This document shows positions 24,690 to 55,148 of a stretch of DNA of 64,000 bases, piece by piece. The stretch is taken from positions 10,444,427 to 10,508,426 of the forward strand of contig OX442315.1 in assembly GCA_949358305.1 (NCBI GenBank). The letters run 5' to 3'. The position numbers were made by a program, and so were the translations under genes. The notes under the pieces were generated by a model. It was not told the origin of the DNA. It worked only from the letters and a program-made list of their open reading frames with translations, and did not search any database. The stretch is from Strigamia acuminata (lineage: Eukaryota; Arthropoda; Chilopoda; Geophilomorpha; Linotaeniidae). The stretch's first letter is position 1; each line of letters starts with the position of its first letter.

Positions 24690-27015
24690 TTTTAGATCTG
24701 TATGGAGAAACTGTAATAAACAAGAAAAAAAATCCAATGCATTTCCGAAAGGTAAATATTAGCAAATAAAATGTCTAAAAGAAGTGATACAGCTAGTGAA
24801 TGCAAAGGTACTATGCCACGTTTCTTTATAGATGAAAAAAGAAAGATCAGTTCAGTATGGAATGCCAGCAGAATTAGGCCATTAATAAGAAACACGACCA
24901 TATCCTACGGGAAGGTAAACCCATGAGTAGTTCTTAAATAATACGAGCTTATATGGATAATAATAAATTGCAGGGATCTAAAGGAACGTGTGTCGACACT
25001 CAGAGCAATGTAGTTATTGCGGAAATGGATTTTATGCTAGCAAGTCAAGTATTTGTAACAACCGGTAAATATTATCTTCAAATTGCTGAAAGTCTGTAAC
25101 AATAATTTTTATAAATTTTTAAATGGTGAATTGTCAGAGGGAAAAATACCCGTTGATTGCCAAGCAAAAATTACCATTAAGTATAACATGCTTGATCTCG
25201 GTGAAATAGAAAATGATATCGATAGATATATTTTAGGATTTGTAATGGTACAGTTATTATCACGACTATAATGAATTTTGTTTCATTATTGGTATCCAAG
25301 TGCCAATTGGGCATTGAGGATAAAATATGACATCCCACAATGAATTAAAATTTTGTCACCAGATAAGACTAAACAAAATTACATTTCTTAATCACTTATT
25401 CTTTTGGCAAATGGTAAATAGTCAACTTGCAAACAAAGAATAAAACGAATAGATACGATCCTGACTTTATACCGCGCATCTCATCTGTTTTGAACCATTC
25501 TGAATTATTATTCGCCATTAAGAGAGTAAGTTACTTCAGATTTCTGCTCATTGTAATCTGATAAGATAAGAAAAAGCAACCTGATTTGTCGTTCCAGTAT
25601 AAATTTCTAAACAGAAGAAGTTTTCCTTGTGTGGAAGAACGTGAAGAGCTAGAATGCCATTACTCATGTTTCAAAAAATTCATATCAACTGACATCACGC
25701 CGCTCTGCAATTAAATACAATCATCCCAAAATTAGTATAAAGCTATTAAATTATGTGTTGGCACGACTTTCGCGCTTTTGCAATCACTTGAGTCAGTAAA
25801 CTAACCTTTGCTAGAAAACTCCATTCCGTGCAAAGCTTACTTTCATATTGCCGCTGCATAATATTCAATAAAATCATTTCAGATTGCCTTGCATGTCCAA
25901 TTTTGATCTTAAAGAATGCTTTGCAAATAATTTAACCTGCACGTATATGAAAGAAATTCATAAAACAATTAAACTTATCAATCTGCATTACGACTGCAAT
26001 TGTGCCAGAGCTTGCAACAAAATTATGATAATTGCTCATCAAAATTTTGATAATGTCGCCGATAACACTTTGACATTTTCTTCATTCAGCAATCAAAGAC
26101 TCACTTTGTCCCAGCAATTCTGCTACGACTTCAATGCTCTGCTGTGTGACGTAGGAGGTTTTCTTGGCTTGTACATCGGAGCCTCGTGTTTGAGTTTAGT
26201 CGAAGTGTTCACTCGCAGAGCACAAAAGCAGTACAAGAAGATGGCCATGTCCCGGAAGTGGAAAAGATGGTTCGAAAAGAAAATTTTTCAGCATATTCGT
26301 AAAATTATACCCAGACAAAACGAATACACATTATCACAGGAAGTAAACACTCAATCCTACAGGTTATTAATGCGGATCAAAGTATTGATTGTGCTTTCGT
26401 GCATTTGTGTCTGCATTTATCAGGTCAGCAGTCGCATAATGTCGTTTTACTCGTTTCCTGTGTACACCACAATTGAAGTAGTGGAAGACAGCTTGTTCAA
26501 ATCCCAACGTTACTTATTTGTAACGAGGGTGAAACTGTGATTGCTGAAAAAGAAGAAGTTATCGAAAACAACAATTTAGATGAAAAGTGCATTGAGAAAT
26601 TGAGCATTGCCGAATTACTCGACCCATCATCGGTATTTGCTGGCGATGCAGATCGTTTGTGGAAAGCTTGGTCTAACATCAACAGTTTTTTGCCTTTGAT
26701 ACGTTTCTTTGTAAAGGGCAGCAAGTTGTGGGTTTCTGTAGAGATGTTACCTTAGATATAATTTATTTTATAATGCAGGGTGCCATGGAACTAGATACCT
26801 CCTTTGTAAACCAAGAGGAAGGAAATAAAACTTCTGCTTCGACCATATTTGGAGATTGCACTAAAGTCAAATATGGTAAAATTAACCAAATTTGGATATT
26901 TCTAATAAAATAGAAATACGATGTCACCATAGATAAGGTTCAATACAATATACTAACAGGGTATGTTTGCATCGTGCAATCGATTGAGGATAGAGGTTGC
27001 AATTCACATTCTAAA
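24690..27015 (+). pseudogene. Gene B: truncated two-module DEG/ENaC pseudogene
   Basis: Recognisable exons are 24793-24914, 24974-25064, 25138-25247, 25422-25525, 25598-25710, 25883-26698, 26779-26875 and 26933-27015 (exons 2 to 9 of the family). Only a tail-like trace of exon 1 remains at about 24690-24751, so the first TM1 is gone. Exon 5 is one base short compared with the other copies. The exon 6 donor is lost (CTGCAATTAAAT for CTGCAGGTAAAT). A one-base deletion near 26489 shifts the frame after the second TM1. The exon 7 donor GT has become AT (26699). Exons 10-12, with the second TM2, are absent. The inverted RNase H duplication ends within about 130 bp of its broken start. It is not expected to make a channel. 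Confidence 0.85.
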
Positions 27016-28668
27016 GTAAGTCCATTCTTTGTATTAAACTTGTCACGTGTATGGTTTTTACCTCCATTTTTAATTTTTTAATTTTTCCAATTTTCATTAT
27101 AATTCCTATTTTATTTCAATTTTATTTCAATTTTTTAATTTTGCCAACTCATCGTCTGTAATTTGTGTGCAAATCGTTTGCGCATACAATTGCTCTCAAC
27201 ATCTTTTTATTTCAACCCCACCCCTGATCACAATTGACATCGCTTGTCAATCATGTTATCAGAAGTGACTTCTGGGCTACCTTACCTCCTAAACAACACT
27301 TCTTGCTTAATTGTCAACAGAGACACACCTCTCTTAGACTTTATTGTTGTAACATTTAATGGGGAAATGATGCAGGATTTTGCTTTCCTGCTTGGTCTTT
27401 GTTCTTGACCAATACTAATCTTTGATGCTGTTATACCAGCATCCCCTATGTAAAATTAGCATAATAAAATCACTTGTAAATCTGAATTTAACAATGGCTG
27501 ACTTGTTTCATGCTCTCTAGACGATCACGATTTGCATTAGTATCCAAAAATACCAATTTATTTCCTATTTAATTCAGTAATTTTATTTATTTCCAATATA
27601 ATTCAGTCATTCCATTTCTTTCCAATATAATTCAGTAATTTTATTAATTTCCCATTAATTTCAGTAAGTTTATCCATTTCCCATATATTTCAGTAAGTTT
27701 ATCAATTTCCCATATATTTCAGTAAGTTTATCAATTTCCTATATAATTCATTAATTATAGTTAATTCCCAATAACAAGATGCTCATATATAAGAGAGCTG
27801 TATTAAGTTATACATATTAGTTGGTTTCTTTTACACCAAGAAACGGTACGGCCTTTGCTGCAGGATCTATGTAAAATAAAATGAAGAAAAAAACATTTAT
27901 TAGTTATATTACATTACAGTTTTATACAGTATATTTACCAGTTGCTTTAGAAACATTACCAGAAGTTACTTGCTGTTGTGGTTTTTCTTGTGCTAATTTA
28001 TGAGGATGAAAATCAAAATATATCATTAAAGGGGTGCTGTCTTAACACCCCTATACACTATGGCATGGTCATGGTTAAAATAAAAATAGGAGAAAACGTA
28101 TAAACAATATTACAAAGTTCTCCAAACAAAACACTAAACTATAGCATGGTCATTCATTAGGAAATAAATTAGAAGAAAACAAGTGCAATAGAAACAAGTG
28201 GAAAACAACATGAGGTCAGTGGTATCTAGTGTACAGAGTCACTCTGTACACCGGACACTATAACCGATCCCAACGACGACAAGTGGGAAACTGCAAGACT
28301 GCTGTGCTTCGATTTTTTTCTTGACCGTCCTCTCCAGGCATCACACATGTCCAAGTCTCCTACTCTCGACCTAACCTAACAGAACCTTAACCATAGGCCC
28401 CCTGACGGTTTTCAGGGGGCTTTGGCGTTTCCTAACCTTGTCGAGCGAGTAATATGACTCAGAATGAGTGATGAAACGAGAGAACGGAAGAAAAAAATCG
28501 ATATTTAGCCAATAGAATATCGATTGATTTGTTTTAAGTTAATGCGCTCGCGCTCCGGTGGAAAATGTCTCGTCTTTGGGTGGTTCTTCAGTGTCATTGG
28601 ACATTCCTGCAGTGTGAGAGTATTTTAAAATTACACATTAATTATTTTTTGGAATTGTAAAACAATAT
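27016..28668. other. Spacer after pseudogene B, with minisatellite
   Basis: It has no exons 10-12 of the channel family. A 29-bp minisatellite lies at 27570-27775 (see its own entry). On the minus strand, 28060-27780 holds two exon-like stretches ending in a frame that reads QEKPQQQ and VPFLGVKETN, which could be the end of an unrecognised gene. A GC-rich hairpin (GGCCCCCTGA, TCAGGGGGC) lies at 28397-28422. Confidence 0.4.
27570..27775. repeat. 29-bp minisatellite, about 6 copies
   Basis: The unit ATTTCAGTAAGTTTATCAA, then TTTCCCATAT, repeats head to tail. Units on the left are more diverged (TTCAGTAATTTTATT, CCAATATAA). Confidence 0.85.
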
Positions 28669-35326: not shown

Positions 35327-38300
35327 ATGGCGCCTATACCCACTCGTCACAAAAATATGCAAAGAAGAATGAAAAGAATGATCTCAGAATATATTGAAAT
35401 GGACTTTGAAGTTCCCCATTTACTCCCTCAATTTCCTCAAATCCGCAAGAACAAATTCCGTCATTTTTATTCCGTGATTTGGCATTTCATCACTGCGTTA
35501 GTCGTGTTAGTGTGCATCTACCAGACATTTGACCGAATCAAATACTACGTCTCCTCACCGGTCAAAGTTTCCGCTGTTATAAATGAAAACGAGCACTTTC
35601 CAGGAATAGCCATTGGTCTCTTTGTTTTTCATACTATGGAAAGTGTCTTAGAGATTCAATTAGCAAAAAATGCATCTCCTGACGGTAAATATTTGCAATA
35701 AATAGTCTAAAAACGAATTTCTGTCGTTAATTTTTTTTTTCTAAACAGCTAAGCCATGCAAAGGTGCTACTCCACAATTTATTATGGATGAAAAAAGAAA
35801 CATTGGTTCAGTATGGAGTTCTAAAAGAATGACTAAGTCATCAGTAAGAAATATAACTCTGTCTTACACCAAGGTAAACCTACAATGAGTTAAATTACTG
35901 TATTACTTTGAGTAAAAGTCGCTGCTTGTAATTGTAAACGCAATTGTATAATCGAGGGTGACCTTTAATTCAAATCGTGTAATGTGTGCAGCAGATGTGG
36001 TCCACGTGTATGACTTGAAGATTGTGTAGAAGAATGGAGGGGTGAGGGTTGTTTTGCCAATGCAAACACTGACCTAACCCATTACCACAGGTAGTATAGT
36101 TGGTCAAAGGCGCCCTCAGGAGGGAGTTTATGGAAGCTACTAGCACAACTAATCCATACGGGATTGTAGAAACTAAGGTCTAGGACCAAAACGGGGAGAA
36201 AAGAGAAAACACAACAGCTCTGTCAAATCCAAGTCTGTACTGAATTAAAAATATAATAAAATAAACGAACAAAGTGCCGCGTCCTACTTGGTATAGGTTT
36301 AAATGCGCTAGCGTGTAATACTTTACCTGTGATCAATTATGCTGTGGAGTTTTTCGGGTTCGAGACGGATAACGGCGACAATACGTCACCAGAGGGCGGG
36401 CGGACATATACAAATATGTCCTATAGACGTTTTGGGGGCAAACAGCCAATTGGGGACTGTTCCTTGTAGTCAACCAATCAGGGTTGACTAGAGAGATATT
36501 TAAACAGGGTTGAATTGTTAATAAAATTACTTTTGAATTTAAACAAGCAAGCGTGTGCGTCGCAGACCAGCGGGTCCGCCATTTTATTTGAAAGTCAGCT
36601 AGTCTCAGTTTGAGATAGTTTACAATGCAAATACCCAAATAACTTCTAAATGTATATAAATGAACAAAGGGTTTTATTTAATAGGCTTGGAGGCCTTAAA
36701 TACACTCAGTAAAATTCTAGAGTCGACTTGGTCAGAGTCGAACAAAGGATTTCTCAAGATGGCGTCCTCGGTCCCGCGTGGTCGGCGGAACAATGGTGGC
36801 GTCTCGAGTTGTCGTTAATTCGTCACGGATTCGTCGTTCACGGACGCGGTGGAATGCTCTTTCGAGTCTTCTATCTGTGCCTATTGTCTAGGGGTTGGTT
36901 TAGCGTCGCAGAAGCCTCGTTTGGGAACTGGGGGTTCCTAACAAAGCACACGGACGCTTACTTCGGTGAATAATCGTGGGGACGATTATCCTGGGTGATT
37001 TCACAAGGGCTATTCTCTTGCTTTCGCCGGAATAGCTCTCAAGTGACTTCGTGAGAGTTACAGTTGCACTTTACTCAGCGATCCTCGATCAATCCTAACT
37101 TGTACTTGAAGTTGGCCTGACGGTGAGGTAGTTGCTGTGTTCTTGGTGTCGTTTGTGTAAGTTCTGTCTTTTAGGCGGGAAACACAGCCTTTTATGCAGT
37201 GGGGTGAAGGGCCGGCGATCAACCAATGAGGGCTGACTACCAGCCGCTTCCTTCCCCTCGGGGCACACACCTGCTAAGGGGAGGTGGAGCCAACTCGGGG
37301 GGGGGGGGGGGGAACGACTCTTCAATCATAGTGACTCAGAGGGAAAGTATCCGCTTCGGGGGGACACACTTCCAACTGGGTCACCACAAAAGAAAGCTCG
37401 AAATAACAGTAGCACTAAAGGAAACCGCATCTCATTATCACAACAATAATTTGTACTAAAACGCTTAAAACTAGATTTAACATGGGAATATGAGAATTTA
37501 GAATTATAACAGAAAATTGATAAAAAACCATAAAAAATTGATAATAAATAACATAGCAACTGGATAACTCCATGTGTCCAAAAGGACCATAATGTCACTG
37601 TTTTTATCAACAATTTATAAATTTATAAACTGTATTTTTTCTAAACTTATATTGGCAATAATTAATTGCAGGGGTCGCAAGATAATTGTGATATTCAGAG
37701 CAAAGTTGTTATTAATGAAATGAACATTTATTTAGGAAATCAAATGTTAGTAACAACTGGTAAGTATTATTTACAAAATTTTAAAACAAAATCCGTAATA
37801 ATAATTTTTATGGAAATTTCAATTGCTTAATTGCAGATAGAAAAATACCCGTTGATTGCCAAGCAAAAATCATCATTAAGTATAACAAGCTTGATTTACG
37901 TTTAATTAATGATGCTAGAAAAAGGACCATTTTAGGATGTGTAATGGTATGGCAATTATCATGACTATGCAGAATTTTACTTCATTATTGGTGGTTAACG
38001 GTGAACTCTTCTTCTTCTCTTCTCCAAATGTGTGCAGCAGCGACGGCTGGTACACACAGCGCAAAGGGGTGCAAACGGGTGGAAACGGGTGCTGGCTTTG
38101 CACAATGGGTGCAAAGAAAGCTGGAGTGTTTTGCACTCCATCTTTATTCTTTAATTGCGGCGCACGTCGCGTTCTCGTGACATTACGAGATCGCGTACAG
38201 CGCCACCTGTATTTTTATGCAAAATAAAGTATTCTAATTTGGTTCCTTGCAACTACTGCCTCGTACTTTCGCCACCTCCAACACAATCCGACTAAATCCA

Positions 38301-41300
38301 CGAGAATCCGAAGTCATCTACGCACAGAACACATCAAATGGCGACGAGCGGATGAGATATTTCAACCCAATTAATTTCCAGTGACTTTTTGGTGTTGTTG
38401 TGTGCTTTTTCAAACACTTCCGGTCTCCAACCACGCTGTCCTCCGACCACGCTGTCCACGCCTTTCCAGTGCAGGCCTAATTCCGAACGTGTGAGTTTTT
38501 ACGTGTGTTTTCGCCGATTTTATTCTTCTAAATCTACGAGATGCCTCGCCTTGTTGGTGACCCTAACAAATACGATCCAGCAGACGACTGGAGCACCTAC
38601 ACTGCCCAGCTGAAGTGTGTTTTCACCTGCAATGGAATTACCAACGACAAGCAGAAAGTTAATACCTTGTTGGCTTGCGTCGGCATTGCAACTTTTAAAA
38701 AAATCACGGACTTGGCGTTCCCGAAAGATCCGGCCGAAATGCTGTACGCCGATGTGATTAAGCTGATGGAAAAGCACCAGAAGCCCAAGCCACTGGTCGG
38801 CGGCGAGCTGTTCCGCTTCCGCTCACGGCGACGAAAGCCCGATGAATCCGTTGCAGACTTCGCGGCCGCACTCCAAGCGCTAACAAGATACTGCGAGCTT
38901 GGCGAATCGCTCAATAATGAACTGCGCAACCAATTCATCTGGGGTTTGCAGATGAAGCACGTGCAAAATGCGCTCATCATTCAAAGCGACTTGACGTTTG
39001 AAAAGGCGCTGGATGCTGCGACCGCCGCGGAATTGGCTTACGCCGACGTTTCCAGTTTCGAGGACCCTCCTACGGCAGTCCACACGATCCAGAACGGTAG
39101 GAACCAGCGACGTAACACCCACCGTGACCACAGTTCTTCCTTCCACGGCCCGGCGCCTCCAGCGGATCCTGCGAGCCTCCAGCCCCAATCGAGTGACGAC
39201 CGCCACAAATGCTTTTCGTGCGGCGCCACGGACCATCGTAGGCACGAGTGTAAGTTCCGACAGTCCCGGTGCCATGCGTGCGGCAAGATTGGGCACATTC
39301 AGGCTGCCTGCTGGTCCGGTGATAAGCAGTCTGTAACCGCGTCGGCCCCCGTCAACACGGTACATGTTGAGCCGCGCAAATTGCAGTTTTATTAGCTGTT
39401 TCCAGCTTAGCTTTTCAGGGGGGGAGGAGAGAGTTATCCTTAACTCATTTTATTCAATGTTCAAATATGTGCTATTCAATTTCAATTCGTGTTTCAATTT
39501 ATTCAATGTTCAAATATGTGCTATTCAATTTCAATTCGTGTTTCAATTTATTCAATGTTCAAATATGTGCTATTCAATTTCAATTCGTGTTTCAATGTTT
39601 TATTTTGCATTACAAACTTCGTGCAACTCTTGCACTATTCTATTACAAATTTCGTGCAACTCTTGCACTATTCTGTTACAAATTTCGTGCAACTCTTGCA
39701 CTATTCTATTACAAATTTCGTGCAACTCTTGCACTATTCTGTTACAAATTTCGTGCAACTATTTGCACAACAATTCTCATGTTCAAATTAATTATATGTT
39801 CAATTGTTTGTTTTAATTGCTCTTCTTGGTTGCTTCGCAATTGAGGGGATACTGGAGTGTTTTGCACTCCATCTTTATTCTTTAATTGTGGCGCACGTCG
39901 CGTTCTCGTGACATTACGAGATCGCGTACAGCGCCACCTGTATTTTTATGCAAAATAAAGTATTCTAATTTGGTTCCTTGCAACTACTGCCTCGTACTTT
40001 CGCCACCTCCAACACAATCCGACTAAATCCACGAGAATCCGAAGTCATCTACGCACAGAACACATCAAAAGCAGAGATTGCGAATCACACAAACACTTAA
40101 CACGGTCGATACTAGCAAGTTTTTGGCTTAGCAGTGACAAGTGTGTTGTTGGTTTTAGTGTGAATTCAAGAGTGCGCCAAATTTGATAATTCAAGCTTGG
40201 CACACTTTGGAGCTGCACAGTAAATCTGCACAATTTGCTCATTTTGGTGCAACAAAGGATTTTGCTGCACCAAAACGGTTAATTAGGGCTCACCCCAGCC
40301 AAATTGGGGTGAAGTATGCTTGGGGAGTTTTCACCCCCTAGTCACATGACTTAGTTTGGCGCATGCCAAACTAAATTGAATTAAAAATACAATATAATTA
40401 ATTTCTAAGTGCTGATTTTTATTAAACAAAAGACAAAAATTACAAAAACGAATCGAGATGACCACACCCCAACCACATGTGCCGTGTGTGGTCGCAGGTC
40501 TGATTCAGCAATGCAGCATAGCAATAGAAGAGGCATGAGATACTGACCCCTTAGTCACTGAATAAAGGCCATAAACCATTAAATACAGTCTCGTGTGCGC
40601 ATTCGCATCATGGCGTGCGCCCGGCGCTGTTTAGGCATTTCTGTGCCCTAATGGCATCCGTCCACTCTCAGAGTACAACTGGAATTTAGTTTTCCGAATT
40701 AGTTTGTCTTTTCTGGAAAATTAGTTTGTATACATGATCAGTTTTCCAGAAAAGTAATATTTGGATTTTCAGTTTTCTAGATGACTGAGTACATGTAAAC
40801 ATGATAAATGAGTTAAAATTCTGCTCTGGGATGAGAATGAACCAAATTATATTTTTTAATTACCTGTATTTGTATTGCTCAATGGTAAAAGGTCAACTTG
40901 CAAGCAAAAAATAAAAAAAATATATTTGTTGGTTCCTCTATGCTGCGTATCTCATCAGTTTTGAAGCATTCGGAATTATTATTCACAATTAAGAGAGTAA
41001 GTATTACTACTATTCCAGATTTTTACAAATTGTAACCAGATTAATTTGTAATTTCAGTACAAATTTCTTAACAGAAGAAGCAGTCCTTGTGTGGAAGAAC
41101 GAGAAGAGCAAAAATGCCATCATTCATGTTTCAAAAAAATTATATCAATACACATTAAGCCTTTCTGCAGGTAAATATAATCAGCCTAAAATTAGCAAAA
41201 CTGTAGAGAATAACCAAGAAATTCTGAGTTTCTTGTTTGTTAAGTTCTTGCTTGGCTTTTCTGCAAAGCTTTGCTATTATTGGAATGATTTAGGTAGGTC

Positions 41301-43784
41301 TTATTTGTTTGTGTGAACTGTCTAAGAGAGTGTGCATTTATTTTATCCTCCGATTAATTCTGGTAATGGTTAGTGCAGTGATTCCCAAACTTTTTCGGTT
41401 CACAGTTCACTTAATATCAAGCATCTCAAGTCTTTTCAATAAAATCTTTTCAGATTGCCATACATGACTGATTCAGCTCTTGAAGAATGCCTGACAAACA
41501 ACCTGACCTGCATAATGATGAAAACAATTCAAGAGAAAGTGAAGCTTATCAATCCGCATTACAACTGCAGTTGTGCCAGAGCTTGCAGCAAAATTATGAT
41601 AATTGCTCATCAAAATTTTGATAATGTCACCGATAACACTTTGACAATTTCTTCATTCAGCAATCAAAGACTCACTTTGTCCGAGCAATTCAGTTACGAC
41701 ATCATTTCACTGCTGTGTGACATAGGAGGTTTTCTTGGCTTGTACATCGGAGCCTCGTGTTTGAATTTAGTCGAAGTCATCACTCGCAGAACACAAAAGC
41801 TGTATAAGAAGATGGCCATGTCCCGGAAGTGGAAAAGGGGCTGGGAGAAGAAAATCATTTACCGAATTCATAAAATTGTAGACAGACAAAATGAATTGTC
41901 ACATGTAATCAAGTCACATTCGTACGTGAGAGGACTAATTCTGGCTGTATCCGCTTGCGTCTGCTTTTATCAAGTGAGCAGTCGCATAATGTCGTTTTAC
42001 TCATTTCCTGTTTACTCCACGATTGAAGTAGTGGAAGACCAGCTTGTTCAAATCCCAACATTACTTTTTTGCAATGAGAATGATGCTGTATTTGATGAAA
42101 AAGAAAAAGTGATAAAAAACAACAGTTTGGATGAATGTGTTGAGAAATTGAGCATTGCCGAATTACTCGATCCACCATCGGAATTTGCTGGCAATGCAGA
42201 TGGTTTGTGGGAAGCCTCGTCCAACATCGACAGTTTTTGGCCCTTGGTATGTTTCTGGAAAAGGTTATTGGTTTTGTCGGGATATTATTTTTGATGTAAT
42301 TTGTTTTCTAATACAGAGTGCTATCGAGTTCGATGTTTCATTCATAAATCGCAATGAAGGAACGAAAACACCGATTTCAACCATATTTGGAGACTGCACT
42401 GAAGTCAAATATGGTAAAATTGACTAAATTTCACATTTATAATAAAGTAGTTTATACAATATCATCGTAGATGAGGTTCAATACAATACAGCAACTGGGT
42501 ATGTTTGCATCTTGCAATATATTCAAGATAGAGGATGCAATTCACATTCTAAAGTAGATCCATTATTCGTATTAAACTGTTATTCAACTAGATGGCATGG
42601 TATTTTCTTTTCATTTTCAATTTTAGATTTTCTTAATGGCAACAGAGAATCGAATGGATTTTACCACTTACATGATTCATCCGCATAATTCATGGATGCA
42701 CGTCATTTTCACGAGGCAATCTGTAAGTTGCACTTTTTCAATCAAATATCAGTTCTACAATATTGATGAACTCTCAAGATGGTGCTTGTTAGGCTATCGT
42801 ACCTGAAATTATATTTAACCCGTGACTAACGTCAGTAAGTGTATTCCAGGCGTTTTCCTAGACCACCATGACGTTTTGTAACACAAAGTGCCACTGATAT
42901 GTGTAGTTGTGAGTGGCGGTCGATTGCCTCATGGCCAGGGGAGGACCATGGGTTGTTTGGACACCATAAACGATTAGAAACAACACAAGAGAACAAACAG
43001 TTTAGATTGATATAATCTTCATTGGTAGTTGTCTAGAGGAAGCAATCAGGCTGCGGACGCAGCTACGACGATAAGTCGTAGCAGCTGCTGAGAATCCTCT
43101 TCTTAATGTCGCCAGTTGGTCACATAGTGGTGCAGATGCACAGCCACTTACGTTTAGCTAGTTTTTCAGAGAAATAGTGTCCATTAAAATATTAGGAATC
43201 GTTAATAAACATTAACAATGTTATATTTATTTACCAGTTTGCACGGCTTAAAACCTCAACAAAAGTTTGTCTAGACATGGAAGAATTCAGAAAATGTAAG
43301 GACAACTGTCTAATGCAAGACAGACAAATCATTTCATGCAGGTTTAAAGATATAATTTATATTTTTTTTGCATTATGATTTTATTTTGTTCATTACCATC
43401 AGTTTACCATTCATAAATAACTCGTCGTTGCCTTCTTGCACCAATTCTACCTCGGCTAAACGAGTTATCAAATCTTACCTGAAGGATGTTTTGAAAACCA
43501 ATTGTGGGTGTCATCCTCCGTGTCAACACACTGTGTACATCCCTCACGTGGAGTATGATCAGACATTCCAATCATTCATTATTGATAGATCTCTTCTATT
43601 TGCACGTTATGAATTGGAAAGTAATTTCCGAGAAGTGTACAAAGAGGAACTGGCTCTACCATTTGAAAATCTTGTCTGCGATATCGGATCTATTCTTGGA
43701 TTCTTTCTGGGATTATCTGTTTTCTCTCTTTTGAATCATATATCCAACATTTACTCTTTTCTCGATAAATGCTGCAAAAATTAA
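35327..43784 (+). CDS. Gene C: intact two-module DEG/ENaC-type sodium channel protein
   Basis: Twelve exons join in frame to 817 aa: 35327-35684, 35749-35873, 37672-37759, 37837-37946, 40892-40996, 41058-41170, 41454-42246, 42317-42413, 42471-42553, 42627-42722, 43238-43341, 43403-43784. Predicted parts: TM1a about 47-66; ectodomain with FPGIAIGLF (91-99), PCVEEREEQKC and CSCARAC; TM2a about 384-408 with filter GAS (399-401); basic linker 409-456; TM1b about 457-474; FPVYSTIEVVED and PTLLFCNEN; CGCHPPC (725-731); TM2b about 783-805 with filter GLS (794-796). Usual DEG/ENaC proteins have one such module. Each ectodomain is about 310 aa, shorter than in ASICs, and no His-Gly gating motif is seen before either TM1. 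Expected at the plasma membrane with both ends cytosolic. The gag-only LTR element sits in intron 4. Confidence 0.92.
36330..36605. mobile_element. Possible solo LTR in intron 2 of gene C
   Basis: It has LTR-like layout: a TATTTAAAC box, AATAAAATTA, then GCGTGTGCGTCGCAGACC and a region rich in short inverted repeats. Intron 2 is 1.8 kb here but short in the paralogues, so something inserted. I cannot find a matching second LTR or target duplication. A G-run of 16 lies near 37297-37312. Confidence 0.3.
38122..38336 (+). repeat. 5' LTR of the gag-only element
   Basis: 215 bp, TG...CA ends, with GCAAAATAAAG as likely polyadenylation signal. It carries C at the one site where the 3' LTR has T (TTAATTGCGGCG). 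Confidence 0.9.
38541..39395 (+). CDS. Gag polyprotein with two CCHC zinc knuckles
   Basis: 284 aa, intact, Ty3/gypsy-like gag. The start MPRLVGDPNKYDPADDWSTY is followed by a capsid-like region with ELFRFRSRRRKPDESVADFA and QFIWGL, the usual layout of metazoan gypsy gag. Two zinc knuckles follow: CFSCGATDHRRHEC (about 223-236) and CHACGKIGHIQAAC (about 245-258), both C-x2-C-x4-H-x4-C. It ends at a TAG shortly after, where an autonomous element would continue into pol. Gag would package the element RNA in virus-like particles, with enzymes supplied by another element. The open frame with near-identical LTRs suggests recent activity. Confidence 0.9.
   Translation: MPRLVGDPNKYDPADDWSTYTAQLKCVFTCNGITNDKQKVNTLLACVGIATFKKITDLAFPKDPAEMLYADVIKLMEKHQKPKPLVGGELFRFRSRRRKPDESVADFAAALQALTRYCELGESLNNELRNQFIWGLQMKHVQNALIIQSDLTFEKALDAATAAELAYADVSSFEDPPTAVHTIQNGRNQRRNTHRDHSSSFHGPAPPADPASLQPQSSDDRHKCFSCGATDHRRHECKFRQSRCHACGKIGHIQAACWSGDKQSVTASAPVNTVHVEPRKLQFY
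39440..39770. repeat. Two minisatellites inside the gag-only element
   Basis: First, three copies of a 53-bp unit containing ATTCAATGTTCAAATATGTG then CTATTCAATTTC. Then about five copies of a 33-bp unit containing TTCGTGCAACTCTTGCACTA. Overlapping open frames in three phases here are products of the repeats. Confidence 0.85.
39853..40067 (+). repeat. 3' LTR of the gag-only element
   Basis: Identical to the 5' LTR except T for C in TTAATTGTGGCG. It is followed by the target duplication AAAGC. Confidence 0.9.
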
Positions 43785-44985: not shown

Positions 44986-45883
44986 ACATTAAAATAGACA
45001 GTATTCAATAAGCGAAGTTATACAGGCACGAGTGGCACAAACAACGTTTTTTTTATCATTTACCTAAGTATCCCCATAAAATTAAAAGTGAACGCTAATA
45101 AAACTTTGTTCTTGCAAACTTAATATTGTTACCAAGACGATGTAAAAATATTGAAGTTACATAAGAATTTCGTTTAGAAGCACATCAATTGTGCTTACAT
45201 CATGGCGCTTGTACTCACACGTCGCAAAAATATGCAAAGAATGAAAAAATTGATCTCAGAATATATTGAAATGGACTTTGAAGTTCCCCAATTACTCCCT
45301 CAATTTCCTCAAATCCGCAAGAACAAATTTCGTCGTTTTTATTCTGCAATTTGGCATTTAATCACTGCGTTAGTCGTGTCAGTTTGTATCTACCAGACAT
45401 TCGACCGGATCAAATACTACGTTTCATCACCGGTCAAAGTATCTGCCGTTATCACCGAAAATGAGAACTTTCCAGAAATATCTATCGGTCTCTTTAGTGT
45501 TCGCACTATGGAAAGTGTCTTAGAGGATCAATCAGCAGCAGACAAATCTTCCAATGGTAAATATTAGCAAATAAAATGTCTAAAACATAGTGATAGTCTT
45601 AACATTGGTTTTTCTACACAGTTAGCAAATGCCTGGGCACTAGTCCACAATTTTTCATAGATGAAAAAAGAAGCATCAATTCAGTATGGAATTCGAGTAA
45701 AATTGGGCCATTAATAAAAAACATGAGCATATCTTACGTCAGGGTAGATCTAAATTTAATTTTCATATAATGTCAGCTTGTGTATTAGCAATAGTTCATT
45801 GCAGAGGTCTAAAGATGTTTGTGACAATGTTCAGAGCAAAATAGTTTTAGATGAAATGAACTTTGCACTAGGAAGTCAAATGC

Positions 45884-46399
45884 TACCGTCTTCCCCCGAA
45901 TAAAACACCATGGTGTTGTATTCGAATATAACACCACCCTGGTGTTGTATTCGAATACAAAACCATGGTGTTGTATTCGTAAAAAAACATGTAAGTTTGC
46001 AAAAAAAGGAAAATTGTTAATATGTGTTTATGACTATGATTAAAAAAACAAACAATATCTTGTATGTTTTTATTTTTTGTGTTTTATTTAAAGTAAAAAC
46101 AAAAAACAATAAAAATAAACTAAATAAAAACGTACATGTGCTGTATCGTTTGCGTTTTGGAAGCGTACACTGTACGTATTTCATAGTTTTTAAAAAATTC
46201 GAATATAAAACCATGGTGTTGTATTTGAAAACAATAAAAAATTCGAATACAACACCATGGTGTTATATTCGAATATAACACCATGGTGTTATAGCTGAAG
46301 TGGTGTTATATTCGAATTTTCGGTCAATGTTTTCAAACTTGTCATTTCGAACAAAACTCGAATACAACACCATGGTGTTATATTCGGGGGAAGACGGTA
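45884..46399. mobile_element. TA-flanked (mariner-type) MITE in coding exon 3 of gene D
   Basis: TACCGTCTTCCCCCGAATA at the left and TATTCGGGGGAAGACGGTA at the right are complements with TA at both outer ends. Comparison with genes A and C shows the empty site CAAATGCTAGCAACA, hence a TA duplication. The interior holds many copies of the palindromic motif ACACCATGGTGTT next to TATTCGAATA. No transposase. Confidence 0.9.
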
Positions 46400-47749
46400 G
46401 CAACAATCGGTAAGTATTCTAAAATAAAAACTATAACATAATATTTTTTGTGGAATTTTTAATTGCTTAATTGTCAGAGGGAAAAATAACCAGGGGTTGC
46501 CAAGCAAAAATCGCCATTAAATATAACAAGCTTGATCTTGATTTAATAAAAGATGAGCAAGAATCGGCCATTTTAGGATCTCTAATGGTATGGCAGCTTT
46601 CATGAATCGTGACTATGCAGAAGTTTATTTTATTATTGGTCGAGTTATGAAACCTTTTTTGTGGCATTTCTTTTTACCTGCAATCATTGTATGTACAATC
46701 CTGGCCATAAAAATTGTCACTGCCTAGTCATGCTCAGCTTGCTGCTGAAATTGAGAGTGACTAGTTACAATTCCAACCATTAGATGGATTGGTCAGGTCT
46801 ACTTTTTAAAGGGATCACACATAACTGGCTGCAACTGGTCAGACGGCATTCATTTTTAATACAGCTTAAGTGATCACACAATAAGCTTACCAATTCACTC
46901 TTGTGAAAAAAATTGGAATTACTCATTCAAGTTTCAGCAGCATGCCAAATGCAACAATTTTTGGACCGCTATTGTACATCCTGTCCTGGGTATCCTCTAT
47001 ACAGATATTCTGATTAAGATACAGAATTAATTTATTGAAAATCTCTTGTTAATTTCCGTATTAATCCAACAGCCAATTAGCTATTGGAAGTGAAATATGA
47101 TAACCACAATGAATTAAAATTCTGCTATCAGATGAAAATGAACCAAATTTGATTTTTTAAATCACTGATTGTATTGTTAAATGGTAACAGGTCAACTTTC
47201 AAGCAAAGAATAAAAAAAACAGATTTGTTGGTAACACTATGCCACGCATCACATCTGTTTTGAAGCATTCTGAATTATTTTTCTCAATTAAAAAAGTAAG
47301 TTACTCCAAACTTTTACACATTGTAACCTGATAAGATAAGAAAAAGTAATATAATTTGTGGTTTCAGTACAAATTTCTAAACAGAAGATGTATTCCTTGC
47401 GTGGAAGAACGTGAAGAGCTAGAATGCCATCACTCATGTTTCGCCAAAATGATATCAACTGACACAACTGACACTAAACCTCTCTGCAAGTAAATATAAT
47501 CATCCAAAACTCAGCATACTCGTGGAGTAAAGCCAAGAAGTTGCGTGTTTGGTTTTTAATTTTTGCTTACTGTGACTGGTATGGTCTTTGCCAAGGTAAC
47601 CTGGGGACTGGTTATCCTGGTTTGGGACGCATACTGACGTAAAAAATGCAAAGCAACTCCATTTTGTCGGTTGTTGGCCTTTAATATGTTTGTCTAGGGG
47701 TTGGAGAATCCCATCACCCCCGTGCAGGGGTGCCATGAAGATATGCCGC

Positions 47750-48330
47750 ACCCCGCAACCGACCCGTCACATAAGAGGTCGGTTAAACATAACATTCGTG
47801 TCGTACTTACCCGAGTATGACCCATGCAGCCGCTCATGGAGGCTGTAGCAGGCCCATCGCCATACTACTGAGCGTCACAGTGGTGAATGGTGAGGAGAGC
47901 AGAGTCAGCACCGGGCATGGTTGCCCTTGCTGGCGTCAGGACCTTCTTAACACGTCTTCTCTCTATGGTCGTTGTGCTCCTTCCATCTCTCACTCACCAC
48001 ACCATTCAGCTCCTTCCATCTCTCACTCACCACACCATTCAGCTCCTTCCTTCCCTATATTGGGTCAGTCCACCCACAAAGGGGGATGCCCCTAGGGCCA
48101 CAGGGCGGTGTGTGGCAGTGTCGTAGGTCACCGTGGAAACAAGCGGTAACATTACCTTACTTTTCCTTCACGGCTTTGCTTGTGCTTTAGTTTACTTCTT
48201 TGTGTTGTTCGTTTTATCTTTTGGAAGACAAATAATTCATTGACTTTAGCCTGTGAGGGCACAGAAAACAATATACTTTGCTAAACTTGCTAAAATTAGT
48301 AAGGCATAATATTCAATAAAATCGTTTCAG
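47750..48330. repeat. Dispersed repeat in intron 6 of gene D
   Basis: ACCCGTCACA, CATGCAGCCGCTCATGGAGG and GCGTCACAGTGGTGAA match the region 59620-59800. TATTGGGTCAGTCC and GGGGATGCCCC resemble 30880-30930. Inside, CCATCTCTCACTCACCACAC is part of a 33-bp tandem pair (47985-48055). Open frames here are repeat products. Confidence 0.5.
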
Positions 48331-49264
48331 ATTGCCTTTCATGCCTAATTCAGATCTTAAAGAATGCATGGCAAATCATCTGACCTGCAACTATTTGAAA
48401 CAAGTTCATGAAAAATTGAAAGTTACCAATCCGAATTACAACTGTAGTTGTGCCAGAGGATGCAACAGAATTATGATAATTGCTCATCAAAATTTTGATA
48501 ATGTCACCGATAACACTTTGACAATTTCTTCATTCAGCACTCAAAGACTCACTTTGTCCGAGCAATTCTGCTACGACTTAATCGCTCTGCTGTGTGACAT
48601 AGGAGGTTTTCTTGGCTTGTACATCGGAGCCTCATGTTTGGGTTTAGTCGAAGTCATCATTCGCAGAACACAAAAACAATATAAAAAAATAGCCATGTCT
48701 CGGAAGTGGAAAAGATGTTTCGAAAATAAATTTTTTTATCAGATTCGTAAAATTATACCCAGACAAAACGAACGCACATTGTCACACGTAGATAACACTT
48801 ATACCCACCGGTTATTAATGAGGATCAAAGCATTGATTGTGCTTTCGTGCATTTGTGTCAGCATTTATCAAATCAGAAGTCGTATTATGTCGTTTTACTC
48901 ATTTCCTGTTTACACCACAATTGAAGTAGTGGAAGACCAACTTGTTCAAATTCCAACGTTACTTATTTGCAATGAGGATGATGATGTAATTGATGAAAAA
49001 GAAACAGTGATAAAAATTAACAGCTTGAATGAAAAGTGTGTTGAAAAATTGAGCATTTCCCAATTACTCGATCCACCATCGAAATTTGCTGGCGATGTAG
49101 ATGGTTTGTGGAAAGCCTCGACAAATATCGAAAGTTTTTTGGACTTGGTACGTTTCTGCAAAAAGTTGTTGGTTTTGTCGAGCTATTACTTATCACAGGG
49201 TTTCCCAAACGGTGAGGCGGGCCTCACTGGTGAGGCGCGAGCTGATTATTGGTGGGGCGCACCC

Positions 49265-49570
49265 TGTTGCGGATGCAACTCAAAATGTTATGTTGAACAA
49301 ATAAAAGTTACTTTGGATACTTGATGGTTGTTGAATTTGGTTGAATCTTGTGGATGACAAATAAAGCATGCGTACACACGGATTTACATTTGAACAGTGG
49401 TTTAATTTATTCAAACAGGAAATAGGTAAATGTTCTATTCCCCCCTTAATCCATCAATAAAATGTCCCAATACAGAGTGGGTCACCGAAGTGACCCTCTG
49501 GTGGCCAAACATGGCGCCACCTCCAATTCCCCCCTAAACGTTGGCTTCTACAGGAACTCCAGTTTCCACA
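49265..49570 (-). repeat. 3' LTR of the BEL/Pao element
   Basis: 306 bp, identical in my reading to 54843-55148. On the minus strand it starts TGTGG and ends CAACA. A polypurine tract (GGGAGGGGGGGAC on the minus strand) lies just before it. The pol frame stops inside it at 49534. Confidence 0.92.
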
Positions 49571-52500
49571 GTCCCCCCCTCCCGGGGACGTTCCAACTCG
49601 TTTTCAATCTCCAGTGGACACAGTCGTTGTATCGGTCGGCGAAGCTTGGTTCGGTTGGGAAGCTGTAACTCACAAGATCTAATTAATCCGTCGCGACCGA
49701 CTTTCACGTCGGTTATTCTTCCTATTTTCCAAGTAAGTCTTGGCTGATTTTGATCTTCAATCAGAGCCAAGTCGCCCACTCGAAACTTTGCGTCGCTCGA
49801 ATTTCCCCTTTGTTGTCGCAGCTCGACGAGGTACTCATGCGTCCACCTCTTCCAGAAGTGGGCAATAATCGTCTGGCGTTGTTTCCAAATTCGTAAAATC
49901 TGGGTCTGTGTCTCCGGTCGACCTACAGTGCTAGGGACGTTAGGTAAACTTATTAGACGCTTTCCCACAAGAAAATGTGCGGGTGTGAGTGGATCTGGTT
50001 CCGTTGGACTATCGTAGACATATGTCAATGGCCGCGAGTTTATCACAGCCTCCACTTCGACCAACACAGTCGAAAGTCCCTCGTAGCTTAGAGACGTGCG
50101 ACCGATTGTTTTCTTTAAAGCGATTTTCACTGACCGCACCATGCGTTCCCAGAAACCGCCCCACCACGGTGCGGTCTCGACGATGAACTTCCACGTAATT
50201 CTTCGCACGTCTAGAAACTGTCGAAATCGACCCACCAACACTTCGTTTAAAAACACACTTAATTCACGGTCAGCTCTTTTAAAAGTTTTTGCGTTATCTG
50301 AGTAAATGGTCGTTGGTATTCCTCTTCTGCCGACAAACCGCTTAAACGTATCCACAAATCGATCCGTCGACAAATTCGAAAGTATTTCTAAGTGTACAGC
50401 TCTCGTGACCGCGCACGTAAACAATGCGATATAAAGTTTTTCACCTTGATTGGAGTACAGTGGTCCCGCGAAATCCACGCCACTTGTTTCGAATGGCGCA
50501 CTCGGTGTTACGCGGTCGAGTGGCATCAGTCCCCATCGTTCTTTCGCCAATCGTCCCTGCATTTTTCGGCAGAGCACGCATTTGCTCAGTACCGCCTTGA
50601 TTGTTTTCCTGGCTCGTGGGATCCAAAATCGTTCGCGAAAACTGCTGAGCGTGTCTGCCAGTCCTCCATGCATTGTTCGTTCGTGCTCTTCTGTAATAAT
50701 CAAATTCGTTACATAATTGTTACACGGCAAGATGTATGGCTCTCGGATGTCGCGTTCAATTTCTGCTAGCGCCCATCTGTGTGTTGCACGCATCAATTCG
50801 TTCTCGTCTATCGTCGGGGAAAATTGCAACAGCGGTGAGGTTTTTTCTACGAGTTCTCCTTTCTGTAGACACTTTAGTTCTCGATGAAAATAAAAGTTTT
50901 GTAAGTATTTTATCCAATATCTCTCTCCCTTTTCAATCTCGTCTCCGCTCAATTCTCCCGTGATTTTATCTTTACTTCGCAAGTTTTTAACAAACCGTAA
51001 TACCCAAGCAGTCGTTCTCTTTAATTTCGACCATCGACTGAACCTTGTGTAGTCAATTATCTGGATTTGTTCATTTATCGCGTTCACTTGGACTTCTTCG
51101 CTCGTATCCGTTGTTTTCACAATGTCAGTTTCAGTTGGCCAATTCGAATCGTCGCCACTCAACCACTGCGGTCCTTTCTGCCAAAAATCACTATTTGTTA
51201 GTTCTTGTACCGTTACGCCCCGTGTTAGTAGGTCTGCCGGATTCTCCTTGCCCGGGCAGTGGCGCCAACAGCTGGTGTTTACTGTTTCCCCAATCTCCTT
51301 TACACGATTGAAGACAAATGTGACGGGACGATTCTTCGTTTCTCGCAACCAACACAGCACTATTTTCGAGTCAGTCCAAATTGTTACATTGTCGTATCCG
51401 ATTGTCGACTGCAGCGTCGGCACAAGTCGGGCTGCCAGCAATGCTCCCATCAGTTCTAGTTTAGGAAGGGTTAGTTCCTTAAGTGGTGCTACTCTGCATT
51501 TGGAAACGATAAAAGTAATGTTAATTGCACTTGTATTCGAGTCCAGGACTCGAGCATAAGCTACCACGCCATATGCCCGAGGACTGGCGTCGCAGAAAAT
51601 GTGAATCTCCTTTTTTACATTAATTCCTCCCCAGTTTAATAAATTTCGTGGAATTTTTAAATCAATTAGGTATGGTATTTGTGCACACCATTCTTCCCAA
51701 GTTTTTTTCACATATTCTGGGATTTTCTCGTCCCATCCAACCCCAAGTTTCCATAATTCTTGAAATAAAATTTTAGCCGTGACCACAAAGGGATGAGCAA
51801 ATCCCAATGGGTCGAAAATCATAGCTGTTGTTCTAATAATTGATCGTTTTGTGTATTTCGTTAATTCGACCCCGTTAATTAATTCAGTAATATCTAAACT
51901 TAATTCATCGGTTCTTGTGTTCCACCCCACCCCCAAAACTTTAGTCTCTTGTTGAGAGAGCGATTCTTCACAAGTCGGGTCATCAGTTACAATTATTTTT
52001 CTCAGTTGTTCACAGTTGGTTTTCCACTTAGTTAGTCTCATATCCGCTTTCCTCAGAATTTCACAACTTTCACGGTACAGTTTTATAGCGGTCGTTAATT
52101 TGTTTAAACTTGAAATGAGGTCGTCTACGTACCGATCATCCTCCAATCGCTTGCATGTTTCTGGATATTCTTCCTTGAAGTCTTCGACATGATGATCGAT
52201 GGTGGCCGAGAGGAGAAAAGGGCTGGGGGATGTACCAAATGGCACTCGTGTTTGTCTGAGTTCCCTTATCTTCGCCGGTTCGGTTCCATTCCAGTTTTCC
52301 TCGAGCCAAAGAAATCTCATGACATCGCGTTCTTTTTTCTTCAAATGGATGCGATGGAAGGCCTTTTCAATATCCGCGATGGCTGCGATGATTCCTGTTC
52401 TAAATTTGAGAATCACGTTTAGTAATTTTGGCAATAAGTTCGGTCCCTTGTATAAACAGTCGTTCAATGAGAAGCATCCTTTCGCGTGTGAGGAAGCGTC

Positions 52501-54783
52501 GTACACGATTCTAAGTTTGGTCGTTGCTCTTGTCTCGTCGATCACGGGTCTGTGTGGAATATAATAAATTGGGTTATTTTCTCCAGTTTCCTGTGGTACT
52601 TCTTCGACAATTCCAGTTCTAAGTTGCTCCGTGATCACTTCTTTGTATTGTAAATACAGCTTCGGATTTTTCCTAAATCGATTGACCAAACTCCAAAATC
52701 TTTTTAATGCTGGTTGTCGGTTGTCGTCCAGTTCTTTGGCGTTCAGTTTCCACGGCAGTTCGACTTCGTAGTGGTCTTGTACCCATTCGATGCTTTCCTT
52801 GAATCGTTTCAATGTTTGCTCGTCGTCCTCGTTTTGTTCCACGGTCTCGTGTTTAATCCCGATTGCCTCCAAACTCCAAAATTTCTCCAAAAGCTCATTA
52901 GTATTGTCAATTACAAGGATTTTATTTACCCGTACGAGCGCCGACACTGTCTCCTTATTCTCCCCAGATGAGCCGTGCAAAGTCCAACCGAAAATCGTTT
53001 CTATTGCCATTAAATTTTCTCCAAGTCGGTGTTGTTTTCCGGTGGTCACTTTCCAAAAATTGTCCACTCCGATCAAAATCGAAACTCCATCGTCCATTTG
53101 AACATTTCCGTTGCTTGCCAATTTGATGTTGTGTTTCTTCAGCTCGTTCAGTATTCTCTGGTCAGTCTGTCCCTTCAGCGCTGGTGTGATCCACGGAGTT
53201 TCTAGTGCTTCGACTTCTAAATTAAAGGCAACATTATCGCAATTATTCATTAACAGTTTCACTCGATTTCTCTTCGCAATTGTTGGCTCGGTTGCTCCAA
53301 AGGTTAACAATGCAATATCTTGTTCGCCAACTCGTTCCAAGTTCAGTTCTCGAGACAACTTCTCCGTAATAAATGTCTTCTGCGATCCGCCATCCAAAAA
53401 ACACTGTACTTTACGCCTTTTCGATTGTCCGCACGCATCTACAACGAGTACTTGCAAAAACATCACGGATACTGGTTGTTCCTGCTCCAAAACGGCGGAT
53501 GAGGTCAGTGTCTCGATTGGTTTCTTCTCTTCAGCGTCGCACAGGTAAGTGTGGTGATTCTTTTCGCAGTTCTTGCATCGAAATCGAGTTTTGCATCTGG
53601 AGGCGATGTGTCCCTCCTTGAGACAACGATAGCATCTTCGAAACTTCATGCACGCAGCTTTACGTTCGGCAAGAGTCAGCGGGCAATTTGGGCTCGTATG
53701 CTCTTCTTTTTGACAAAATGTGCATTTGTACGTGATTGTTGTCAAAGCTGCGGCGGAACCAAGTGGATTATTCTTTGTATTTATTTTCTTAGTTACCTCC
53801 TCTTGTTTTTTCGTAGTAGTTTCTTTCTTTTCGATCAAGTTGTTTTTATCACTCATTGCCTTCGTCCTCTCGCGCATCTCGATTTCGAATCGGAAAAACT
53901 TCAGAAAATCTGTCATCGACCATGGTAATTCGCCTCTGGATCTGGAAAAGTCGTGTTGCATCGAATCGGGCGTCGCACGAGTTAAAATTGGGCCCAAGAG
54001 TGCCCCAAACGTTGATGCATCCACTCCTAAATTTCCTAAACTTGTTATGTGAAGGTCGCAATAATCATAAAGTTCTCGAAGTGCAACAACATCTTCTGCA
54101 TTTTTCACGGGCTTCATCTCCAAGAACTTCTGCATGTGTGCATTTATTATCAAGTCCGGTTTACCAAATCTACTTGCCAACAAACCGACCGCGCTGTCGT
54201 AATTTTCATCCGTTACCGTGAGTCCACTTATCGCGTTGGCGGCCAATCCTTCGACCAACGATCGTAAATACACGAACTTCGCCGTTTTGGGAAGCGAAGT
54301 GTTGTTATGCACGCTTAACTGGAAGTCTCCCCAGAATTGAGTCCACGTTTCGGGTGTTCCTCTGAATTTGGCAATTTCCAGCTTCGGCAATTTCATGCTT
54401 GTGCATTGTTGGCCTCCGATCGGCGTATTAACGATAACGGGATTAATAAGTGGTAAGTTTGGATTTAGTACTTGCGGTTTCAGTCGTGTGATTTCTTTCA
54501 AAGCCATTTCCAGCGTGATTTTTGCTGCTACCAATTCGTCTTGGAACTCCTCGGCTCCAATCGTATCGTCCGTGACTTCGTCAATGTCGGTGATGGCGTC
54601 GGCCACCAGAATGTCCAACTTCTCGATCTTTGGTCCCTTTAAAAGTAACTGTGCTTGTATGCATAAAAGTTTTACTTCATTTACCGGATCTTGTTTTATT
54701 TCATGTTTCAATGTGTTGAAAATATTTCGAATGTTAGTCCTCGCGGCTTCCCTTTGTCTTCGATTCTTCTCCAAATCCGTCAT
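49534..54783 (-). CDS. BEL/Pao Gag-Pol polyprotein
   Basis: 1749 aa from ATG 54783 (MTDLEKNRRQ); the frame is open upstream to an ATG at 54861 inside the LTR, but 54783 fits the end of the primer-binding region better. Domains in order: gag with DUF1759 (FRGTPETWTQFW); three Cys/His knuckles near 358-425 (CTFCQKEEHTSPNC, CYRCLKEGHIASRC, CKNCEKNHHTYLC); aspartic protease near 466 with the unusual active site LDGGSQ where LDSGSQ is usual; reverse transcriptase with YVDD near 886; RNase H with FCDAS, ELMGAL and TDSK; integrase H2C2 near 1373 (HGG, CVLCRKMQG) and catalytic core (GVDFAGP, YSDNAKTF, WWGGFWERMVRS); DUF5641 C-terminus (HFLVGKRL, FRVGDLALI). Length and order are typical of autonomous BEL/Pao. 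Confidence 0.95.
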   Translation of the reverse strand: MTDLEKNRRQREAARTNIRNIFNTLKHEIKQDPVNEVKLLCIQAQLLLKGPKIEKLDILVADAITDIDEVTDDTIGAEEFQDELVAAKITLEMALKEITRLKPQVLNPNLPLINPVIVNTPIGGQQCTSMKLPKLEIAKFRGTPETWTQFWGDFQLSVHNNTSLPKTAKFVYLRSLVEGLAANAISGLTVTDENYDSAVGLLASRFGKPDLIINAHMQKFLEMKPVKNAEDVVALRELYDYCDLHITSLGNLGVDASTFGALLGPILTRATPDSMQHDFSRSRGELPWSMTDFLKFFRFEIEMRERTKAMSDKNNLIEKKETTTKKQEEVTKKINTKNNPLGSAAALTTITYKCTFCQKEEHTSPNCPLTLAERKAACMKFRRCYRCLKEGHIASRCKTRFRCKNCEKNHHTYLCDAEEKKPIETLTSSAVLEQEQPVSVMFLQVLVVDACGQSKRRKVQCFLDGGSQKTFITEKLSRELNLERVGEQDIALLTFGATEPTIAKRNRVKLLMNNCDNVAFNLEVEALETPWITPALKGQTDQRILNELKKHNIKLASNGNVQMDDGVSILIGVDNFWKVTTGKQHRLGENLMAIETIFGWTLHGSSGENKETVSALVRVNKILVIDNTNELLEKFWSLEAIGIKHETVEQNEDDEQTLKRFKESIEWVQDHYEVELPWKLNAKELDDNRQPALKRFWSLVNRFRKNPKLYLQYKEVITEQLRTGIVEEVPQETGENNPIYYIPHRPVIDETRATTKLRIVYDASSHAKGCFSLNDCLYKGPNLLPKLLNVILKFRTGIIAAIADIEKAFHRIHLKKKERDVMRFLWLEENWNGTEPAKIRELRQTRVPFGTSPSPFLLSATIDHHVEDFKEEYPETCKRLEDDRYVDDLISSLNKLTTAIKLYRESCEILRKADMRLTKWKTNCEQLRKIIVTDDPTCEESLSQQETKVLGVGWNTRTDELSLDITELINGVELTKYTKRSIIRTTAMIFDPLGFAHPFVVTAKILFQELWKLGVGWDEKIPEYVKKTWEEWCAQIPYLIDLKIPRNLLNWGGINVKKEIHIFCDASPRAYGVVAYARVLDSNTSAINITFIVSKCRVAPLKELTLPKLELMGALLAARLVPTLQSTIGYDNVTIWTDSKIVLCWLRETKNRPVTFVFNRVKEIGETVNTSCWRHCPGKENPADLLTRGVTVQELTNSDFWQKGPQWLSGDDSNWPTETDIVKTTDTSEEVQVNAINEQIQIIDYTRFSRWSKLKRTTAWVLRFVKNLRSKDKITGELSGDEIEKGERYWIKYLQNFYFHRELKCLQKGELVEKTSPLLQFSPTIDENELMRATHRWALAEIERDIREPYILPCNNYVTNLIITEEHERTMHGGLADTLSSFRERFWIPRARKTIKAVLSKCVLCRKMQGRLAKERWGLMPLDRVTPSAPFETSGVDFAGPLYSNQGEKLYIALFTCAVTRAVHLEILSNLSTDRFVDTFKRFVGRRGIPTTIYSDNAKTFKRADRELSVFLNEVLVGRFRQFLDVRRITWKFIVETAPWWGGFWERMVRSVKIALKKTIGRTSLSYEGLSTVLVEVEAVINSRPLTYVYDSPTEPDPLTPAHFLVGKRLISLPNVPSTVGRPETQTQILRIWKQRQTIIAHFWKRWTHEYLVELRQQRGNSSDAKFRVGDLALIEDQNQPRLTWKIGRITDVKVGRDGLIRSCELQLPNRTKLRRPIQRLCPLEIENELERPREGGTVETGVPVEANV

Positions 54784-54842
54784 TGTGATCGATTTTCCTT
54801 GGTTTTTTTTTCTTTTAAAAGGTCTCGGGTTTTCAGCACCAA

Positions 54843-55148
54843 TGTTGCGGATGCAACTCAAAATGTTATGTTGAACAAATAAAAGTTACTTTGGATACTT
54901 GATGGTTGTTGAATTTGGTTGAATCTTGTGGATGACAAATAAAGCATGCGTACACACGGATTTACATTTGAACAGTGGTTTAATTTATTCAAACAGGAAA
55001 TAGGTAAATGTTCTATTCCCCCCTTAATCCATCAATAAAATGTCCCAATACAGAGTGGGTCACCGAAGTGACCCTCTGGTGGCCAAACATGGCGCCACCT
55101 CCAATTCCCCCCTAAACGTTGGCTTCTACAGGAACTCCAGTTTCCACA
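54843..55148 (-). repeat. 5' LTR of the BEL/Pao element
   Basis: 306 bp, identical to 49265-49570. On the minus strand it is the upstream LTR, followed by TTGGTGCTGAAAACC. The target copy CACCC lies at 55149-55153. Confidence 0.92.

Follow-up and report, generated by a model that had tools for sequence, protein, structure and literature searches.

Genes with two DEG/ENaC channel modules predicted in one polypeptide form a very large clustered family in the centipede Strigamia acuminata

Can two complete DEG/ENaC channel modules be carried by one polypeptide, and if so, how would such a chain enter a pore that is built from three? The question is raised by a 64,000-nt stretch of the genome of the centipede Strigamia acuminata (GCA_949358305.1, contig OX442315.1; C3:10444427-10508426 in our numbering), hereafter the window, in which an earlier note had proposed a channel gene of this kind. 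Known DEG/ENaC members have two transmembrane segments (TMs) per chain, with both ends of the subunit intracellular, and the channels are assemblies of three separate subunits, which makes a recurrent double subunit surprising. Repeated pore modules fused in one chain are familiar from K2P and two-pore channels, and the fusion principle is alike; however, in tandem-pore channels the repeat number divides the symmetry of the pore, whereas a double module does not divide a three-module pore, and we claim no homology to these systems. Because a two-module chain cannot be evenly divided into a three-module pore, the genes amount to a natural experiment on channel stoichiometry. Here we place a probability of about 0.8 on the reading that the product of each of these genes is a single protein in which a positively charged linker, taken by us as cytosolic, connects two complete DEG/ENaC modules, and that the genes form a very large clustered family.

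Gene C spans window positions 35327..43784 on the + strand in 12 exons (35327-35684, 35749-35873, 37672-37759, 37837-37946, 40892-40996, 41058-41170, 41454-42246, 42317-42413, 42471-42553, 42627-42722, 43238-43341 and 43403-43784). Its coding sequence of 2454 nt, whose sole stop is terminal, encodes 817 aa, and all 11 introns are of GT-AG type. The border between exons 4 and 5 was set by comparing five copies of the gene; for exon 9, a donor after SHSK restores the frame in C and A, and the matching border does so in M. An alternative donor for exon 9 was rejected, as it leaves exon 10 out of frame and the copies in A and D have a stop in the extension. Hydropathy analysis places four segments in C, with starts at residues 47, 383, 461 and 781, accompanied by two C-x-C-x3-C motifs, CSCARAC (338) and CGCHPPC (725), and two G-x-S filters, GAS (399) and GLS (794), such that the rebuilt coding sequence and its hydropathy reproduce the exon number, length, segments, motifs and filters that the earlier note had reported. 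The two modules meet inside exon 7 (41454..42246, +), which holds the end of ectodomain 1 with CSCARAC, the second segment of module 1 (TM2a) with GAS, a basic linker, the first segment of module 2 (TM1b) and the start of ectodomain 2; an uninterrupted open frame of 264 codons takes in all of these parts. Intron 4 of C contains a retroelement (38117-40080) with a 287-aa gag-like frame bearing a zinc knuckle (38532-39392), and look-alike stretches, judged by eye, flank it on both sides.

With the exons of C as queries, the window yielded five further copies (A, B, D, E and M), two of which could be rebuilt whole, bearing out the claim that A and M share the architecture of C. Gene A (15581..21725, +) has 12 exons encoding 816 aa, starts 10 codons later than C and would require a GC donor at intron 1; gene M (5734..13049, -) has 12 exons encoding 796 aa. 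The phases of the 11 introns (1,0,1,0,0,2,0,1,0,0,2) are identical in C, A and M, and each of the three chains has four hydrophobic segments, two per module, where known DEG/ENaC chains have two TMs in all. Complete 12-exon genes were rebuilt at these three loci only, all of them inside the window. Gene D (45202..56850, +) is known from exon matches rather than as a rebuilt protein: all 12 exons are matched and exon 7 is open, and the insertion already suspected in this gene is an element with inverted ends (~45884-46399) that splits exon 3. Gene B (24801..27039, +), which like gene E was not listed in the earlier note, is a broken copy in which exons 2-9 are matched, with no match to exons 1 or 10-12 of C and with a frameshift and a stop in exon 7. 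Gene E (58184..59390, +) is matched within the window by exons 1-6, exon 4 in part, and runs past the window end; a matching exon 7 (L013) lies ~1.4 kb beyond that end. Intron 7 of D harbors a BEL/Pao-type retroelement on the - strand (49534-54885) with a 1783-aa open frame comprising Pao peptidase, reverse transcriptase and integrase.

By profile, cysteines, filter and TM layout, the halves of C, A and M all belong to the DEG/ENaC/ASIC/pickpocket superfamily (Pfam PF00858). The halves score 38.0 and 57.1 bits for C, 43.7 and 61.9 for A, and 42.3 and 56.4 for M, so that all six exceed the curated cut-off of 23.6 bits and every gene yields the two profile matches that had been expected. The best solved matches of C are two channels known from structures, PDPNaC1 for module 1 (2.4e-14) and BRTNaC1 for module 2 (1.7e-14), the former an antennal proton-gated channel (PDB 9JF7) and the latter a Scolopendra thermal receptor (PDB 8YMR/8YMW). 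The species of origin is in both cases the centipede Scolopendra subspinipes mutilans, and PDPNaC1 is described as a homotrimer of the antennal sensory neurons that has no HG motif (PMC12714832). These channels resemble the C, A and M modules in their core cysteines and in being similarly short (431 and 421 aa), but they are single-module chains, whereas the genes described here have two modules per chain; the best BRTNaC1-like matches in the S. acuminata genome reach 41-43% identity in the final portion of the channel. The HG motif is missing ahead of TM1 from every module of C, A and M, and occurs once in each ectodomain of M; since PDPNaC1 is likewise without it, the motif is not diagnostic here.

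The same fused exon recurs throughout the assembly. When we searched the genome (237.5 Mb, 157 contigs), exon 7 of C matched at least 145 places and exon 7 of M at least 144, while more distant exons used as queries matched at least 147, 147, 150 and 148; these lists overlap, and for families of this size the counts are lower bounds. The union of all but one of the lists of 147, in which places of at least 540 bp were kept, stop-bearing, short and fragmentary entries of the lists of 150 and 148 were omitted, and one place read directly in L081 was added, comprises at least 436 places; these are spread over 15 contigs and group, at a 60-kb gap, into 162 clusters, of which the largest holds 36. 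The remaining list of 147 adds no place to the 436. Ten of the places are on small contigs and may be alternative copies, and seven have a reported stop; together with the omitted stop-bearing entries, the latter indicate that part of the family consists of broken copies. Nearly all listed places span TM2 to TM1, as judged by query coverage and, for part of them, by reading the sequence.

For closer comparison we used 51 distinct exons, namely the 60 loci L009-L068 minus three that failed the motif filter and six repeats. All 51 have TM2, a linker and a second hydrophobic segment (TM1) in one frame; a stop is present in two, L019 (gene B) and L038, and the module 1 filter is G-x-S in 50 and GIC in one. 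The exon-6 motif C-x(6-9)-C-x3-C lies within 1500 bp upstream at 41 of these loci. Eight further exons (L075-L082), read by eye, have the same layout, and the surroundings of three of them vary: at L077 on contig C1, exons 5-12 are all matched in their proper order inside 6.5 kb, L076 has exon 7 followed by a weak exon 11 match (E 0.039) and then a strong exon 12 match, and exon 7 is the only match within 6.5 kb at L075. Single-module genes probably exist as well; at L069, for instance, a TM1 frame that has a start region of its own is followed by a TM2 frame closed by a stop. Open frames of ~130 aa that end after TM2 may be terminal exons of double genes. The genome also contains many PF00858-type exons besides the fused ones: a first look gave 2094 candidates, and 93 of these were scored.

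We then asked what kind of sequence joins the two modules. Across the 51 exons the linker measures 45-61 aa (median 54) and is net positive in every case, with Lys + Arg exceeding Asp + Glu, which fits a cytosolic loop. Among genes A-D the dN/dS of the linker is 0.20 for the pair C-D (p 7e-5), 0.22 for C-A (p 2.5e-4) and 0.32-0.37 for the other four pairs (p 0.005-0.04). In the same genes, the portion of exon 7 that precedes the linker has values of 0.43-0.98, a single pair of the six having p < 0.05, and the portion that follows it has 0.20-0.52. When 22 independent close pairs are drawn from the genome, pooled dN/dS is 0.52 for the linker, with pN<pS in 21 of the 22, and 0.28 and 0.31 for the parts before and after it. 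Given that dN/dS is below 1 and that pN<pS in most pairs, the linker is, on these substitution patterns, selected as protein, and genome-wide less strongly than the modules. For genes A to D, dS in the linker (0.41-1.09) mostly exceeds that in the flanking parts of exon 7 (0.14-0.63), and gene conversion of the flanks may be one cause. Structure prediction of exon 7 alone, from four sequences, gave a pLDDT of 38.9, too poor for use.

These observations bear directly on whether one protein or two should be expected from each locus. An artefact, in which neighboring single-module genes were wrongly joined by the assembly or the gene model, would be a natural suspicion, since merged annotations may account for predicted proteins that have two such domains; yet the join lies inside one open exon and crosses no predicted intron, and matching exons recur at the 436 or more places on 15 contigs, so that this explanation is already contradicted and we regard it as scarcely credible. 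It is rather more conceivable, though still very improbable, that each locus yields two one-module proteins through alternative promoters, splicing or polyadenylation in spite of the continuous exon. A methionine is present in the linker of 40 of the 51 exons and could in principle start a module 2 protein, but the linkers of the remaining 11 exons have none and in gene A the stretch from TM2a to TM1b is free of in-frame Met codons, both of which speak against a separate start for module 2. Likewise, no stop lies between TM2a and TM1b in A, C, D or M, where according to the earlier note a stop would have refuted the double subunit, and both the narrow range of linker lengths and the selection on the linker as protein would be at odds with separate products. 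Chance, too, is a poor account of these genes, given a dN/dS of 0.36 between C and A over the whole coding sequence and the recurrence of the fused exon. The proposal of two channel modules in one polypeptide is supported by gene structure, by linker selection and by genome-wide recurrence.

The fusion also appears to be old within the family. C and A are identical at 585 of 799 aligned residues, C and M at 244 of 770 (32%). Module 1 of C is 27% identical to module 1 of M and 21% identical to module 2 of its own chain; for the module 2s of C and M the identity is 35%. When an unrooted tree was built from the final portion of the channel, the module 1s split from the rest with support of 99/100 and the module 2s with 99.8/100; the two Scolopendra channels fall between the module groups, at an exact place that is weakly supported (64/61). 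Judging from the low identity of C and M and from the separation of the module 1s and module 2s in the tree, the fusion is older than the C/M split, with C-like and M-like genes both having inherited a fused gene. Furthermore, each of the five module 2 introns is matched in module 1 by an intron of equal phase in an identical or nearby position, indicating that both modules descend from one gene structure; the double gene may have arisen either through an intragenic duplication or through the joining of two adjacent genes.

How, then, might a double chain be used? The earlier note had suggested an unusual stoichiometry, with a double plus a single subunit or with linked trimers, which is a reasonable proposal. 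We infer that the double gene would be transcribed and translated as a single chain, and that each chain would put both modules, each with intracellular ends, into three-module cation pores. Since both ends of a DEG/ENaC subunit are intracellular, two modules can be joined without a change of topology. Our preferred assembly, to which we give somewhat less than even odds, is a pseudo-trimer in which one double chain would supply two neighboring subunits and a partner the third. Three double chains might instead build two pores, the module 1s forming one trimeric pore and the module 2s a second one tethered to it, so that the gene would be self-sufficient; this we hold more tentatively. Six modules are the lowest common multiple of 2 and 3, filters and core cysteines are kept in both modules, and the modules diverge along separate lines, as if each had mostly met its own kind; against it stands that, to our knowledge, no tethered pair of DEG/ENaC trimers is known. 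Ranking third after the pseudo-trimer and the tethered pores, two double chains may assemble with one module left out.

The earlier note had also raised the possibility that one module had turned structural, which we do not favor. A module that does not conduct and serves only as scaffold or regulator would be in keeping with two departures in C, A and M: module 1 of M has Ser at the position of pore glycine 378 of PDPNaC1, and module 2 of C and of A has Asn at the acidic position after the filter. Nevertheless, the six core cysteines (BRTNaC1 273, 282, 299, 311, 337 and 341), the DIG aspartate and the G-x-S filter are kept in all six modules. The filters read GAS or GVS in module 1 and GLS or GIS in module 2, and the bulky second residue of the latter (Leu or Ile) has its parallel in the Ile of BRTNaC1, a functional channel, so that it is not in itself a sign of a dead pore. 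We accordingly consider loss of conduction in one module improbable, though less so than either of the explanations that would do away with the single double-module chain.

The scale of the family suggests a large clustered receptor-like family with a DEG/ENaC fold. By analogy with the Scolopendra relatives, and from the clustered, chemoreceptor-like expansion of the family itself, we infer that the repertoire may be sensory. It is a bolder idea, and one that we think doubtful on present evidence, that in an arthropod lineage naturally concatenated DEG/ENaC subunits, with at least 436 loci, make up a receptor repertoire that ranks among its largest and that three double chains close into tethered twin pores, which would be a new architecture for a trimeric channel. 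In practical terms, the natural linker, strongly basic and 45-61 residues long, could guide concatemer experiments with ASIC and ENaC. Five ENaC-related terms are all absent from the main text of the genome paper on the centipede Strigamia maritima (PMC4244043). The window also contains, at 3639-4208 (+), an open frame with a MATH (TRAF-type) domain (PF22486, 4.4e-24) and, at 62978-63490, a tandem array of ~10 copies of a 51-bp unit.
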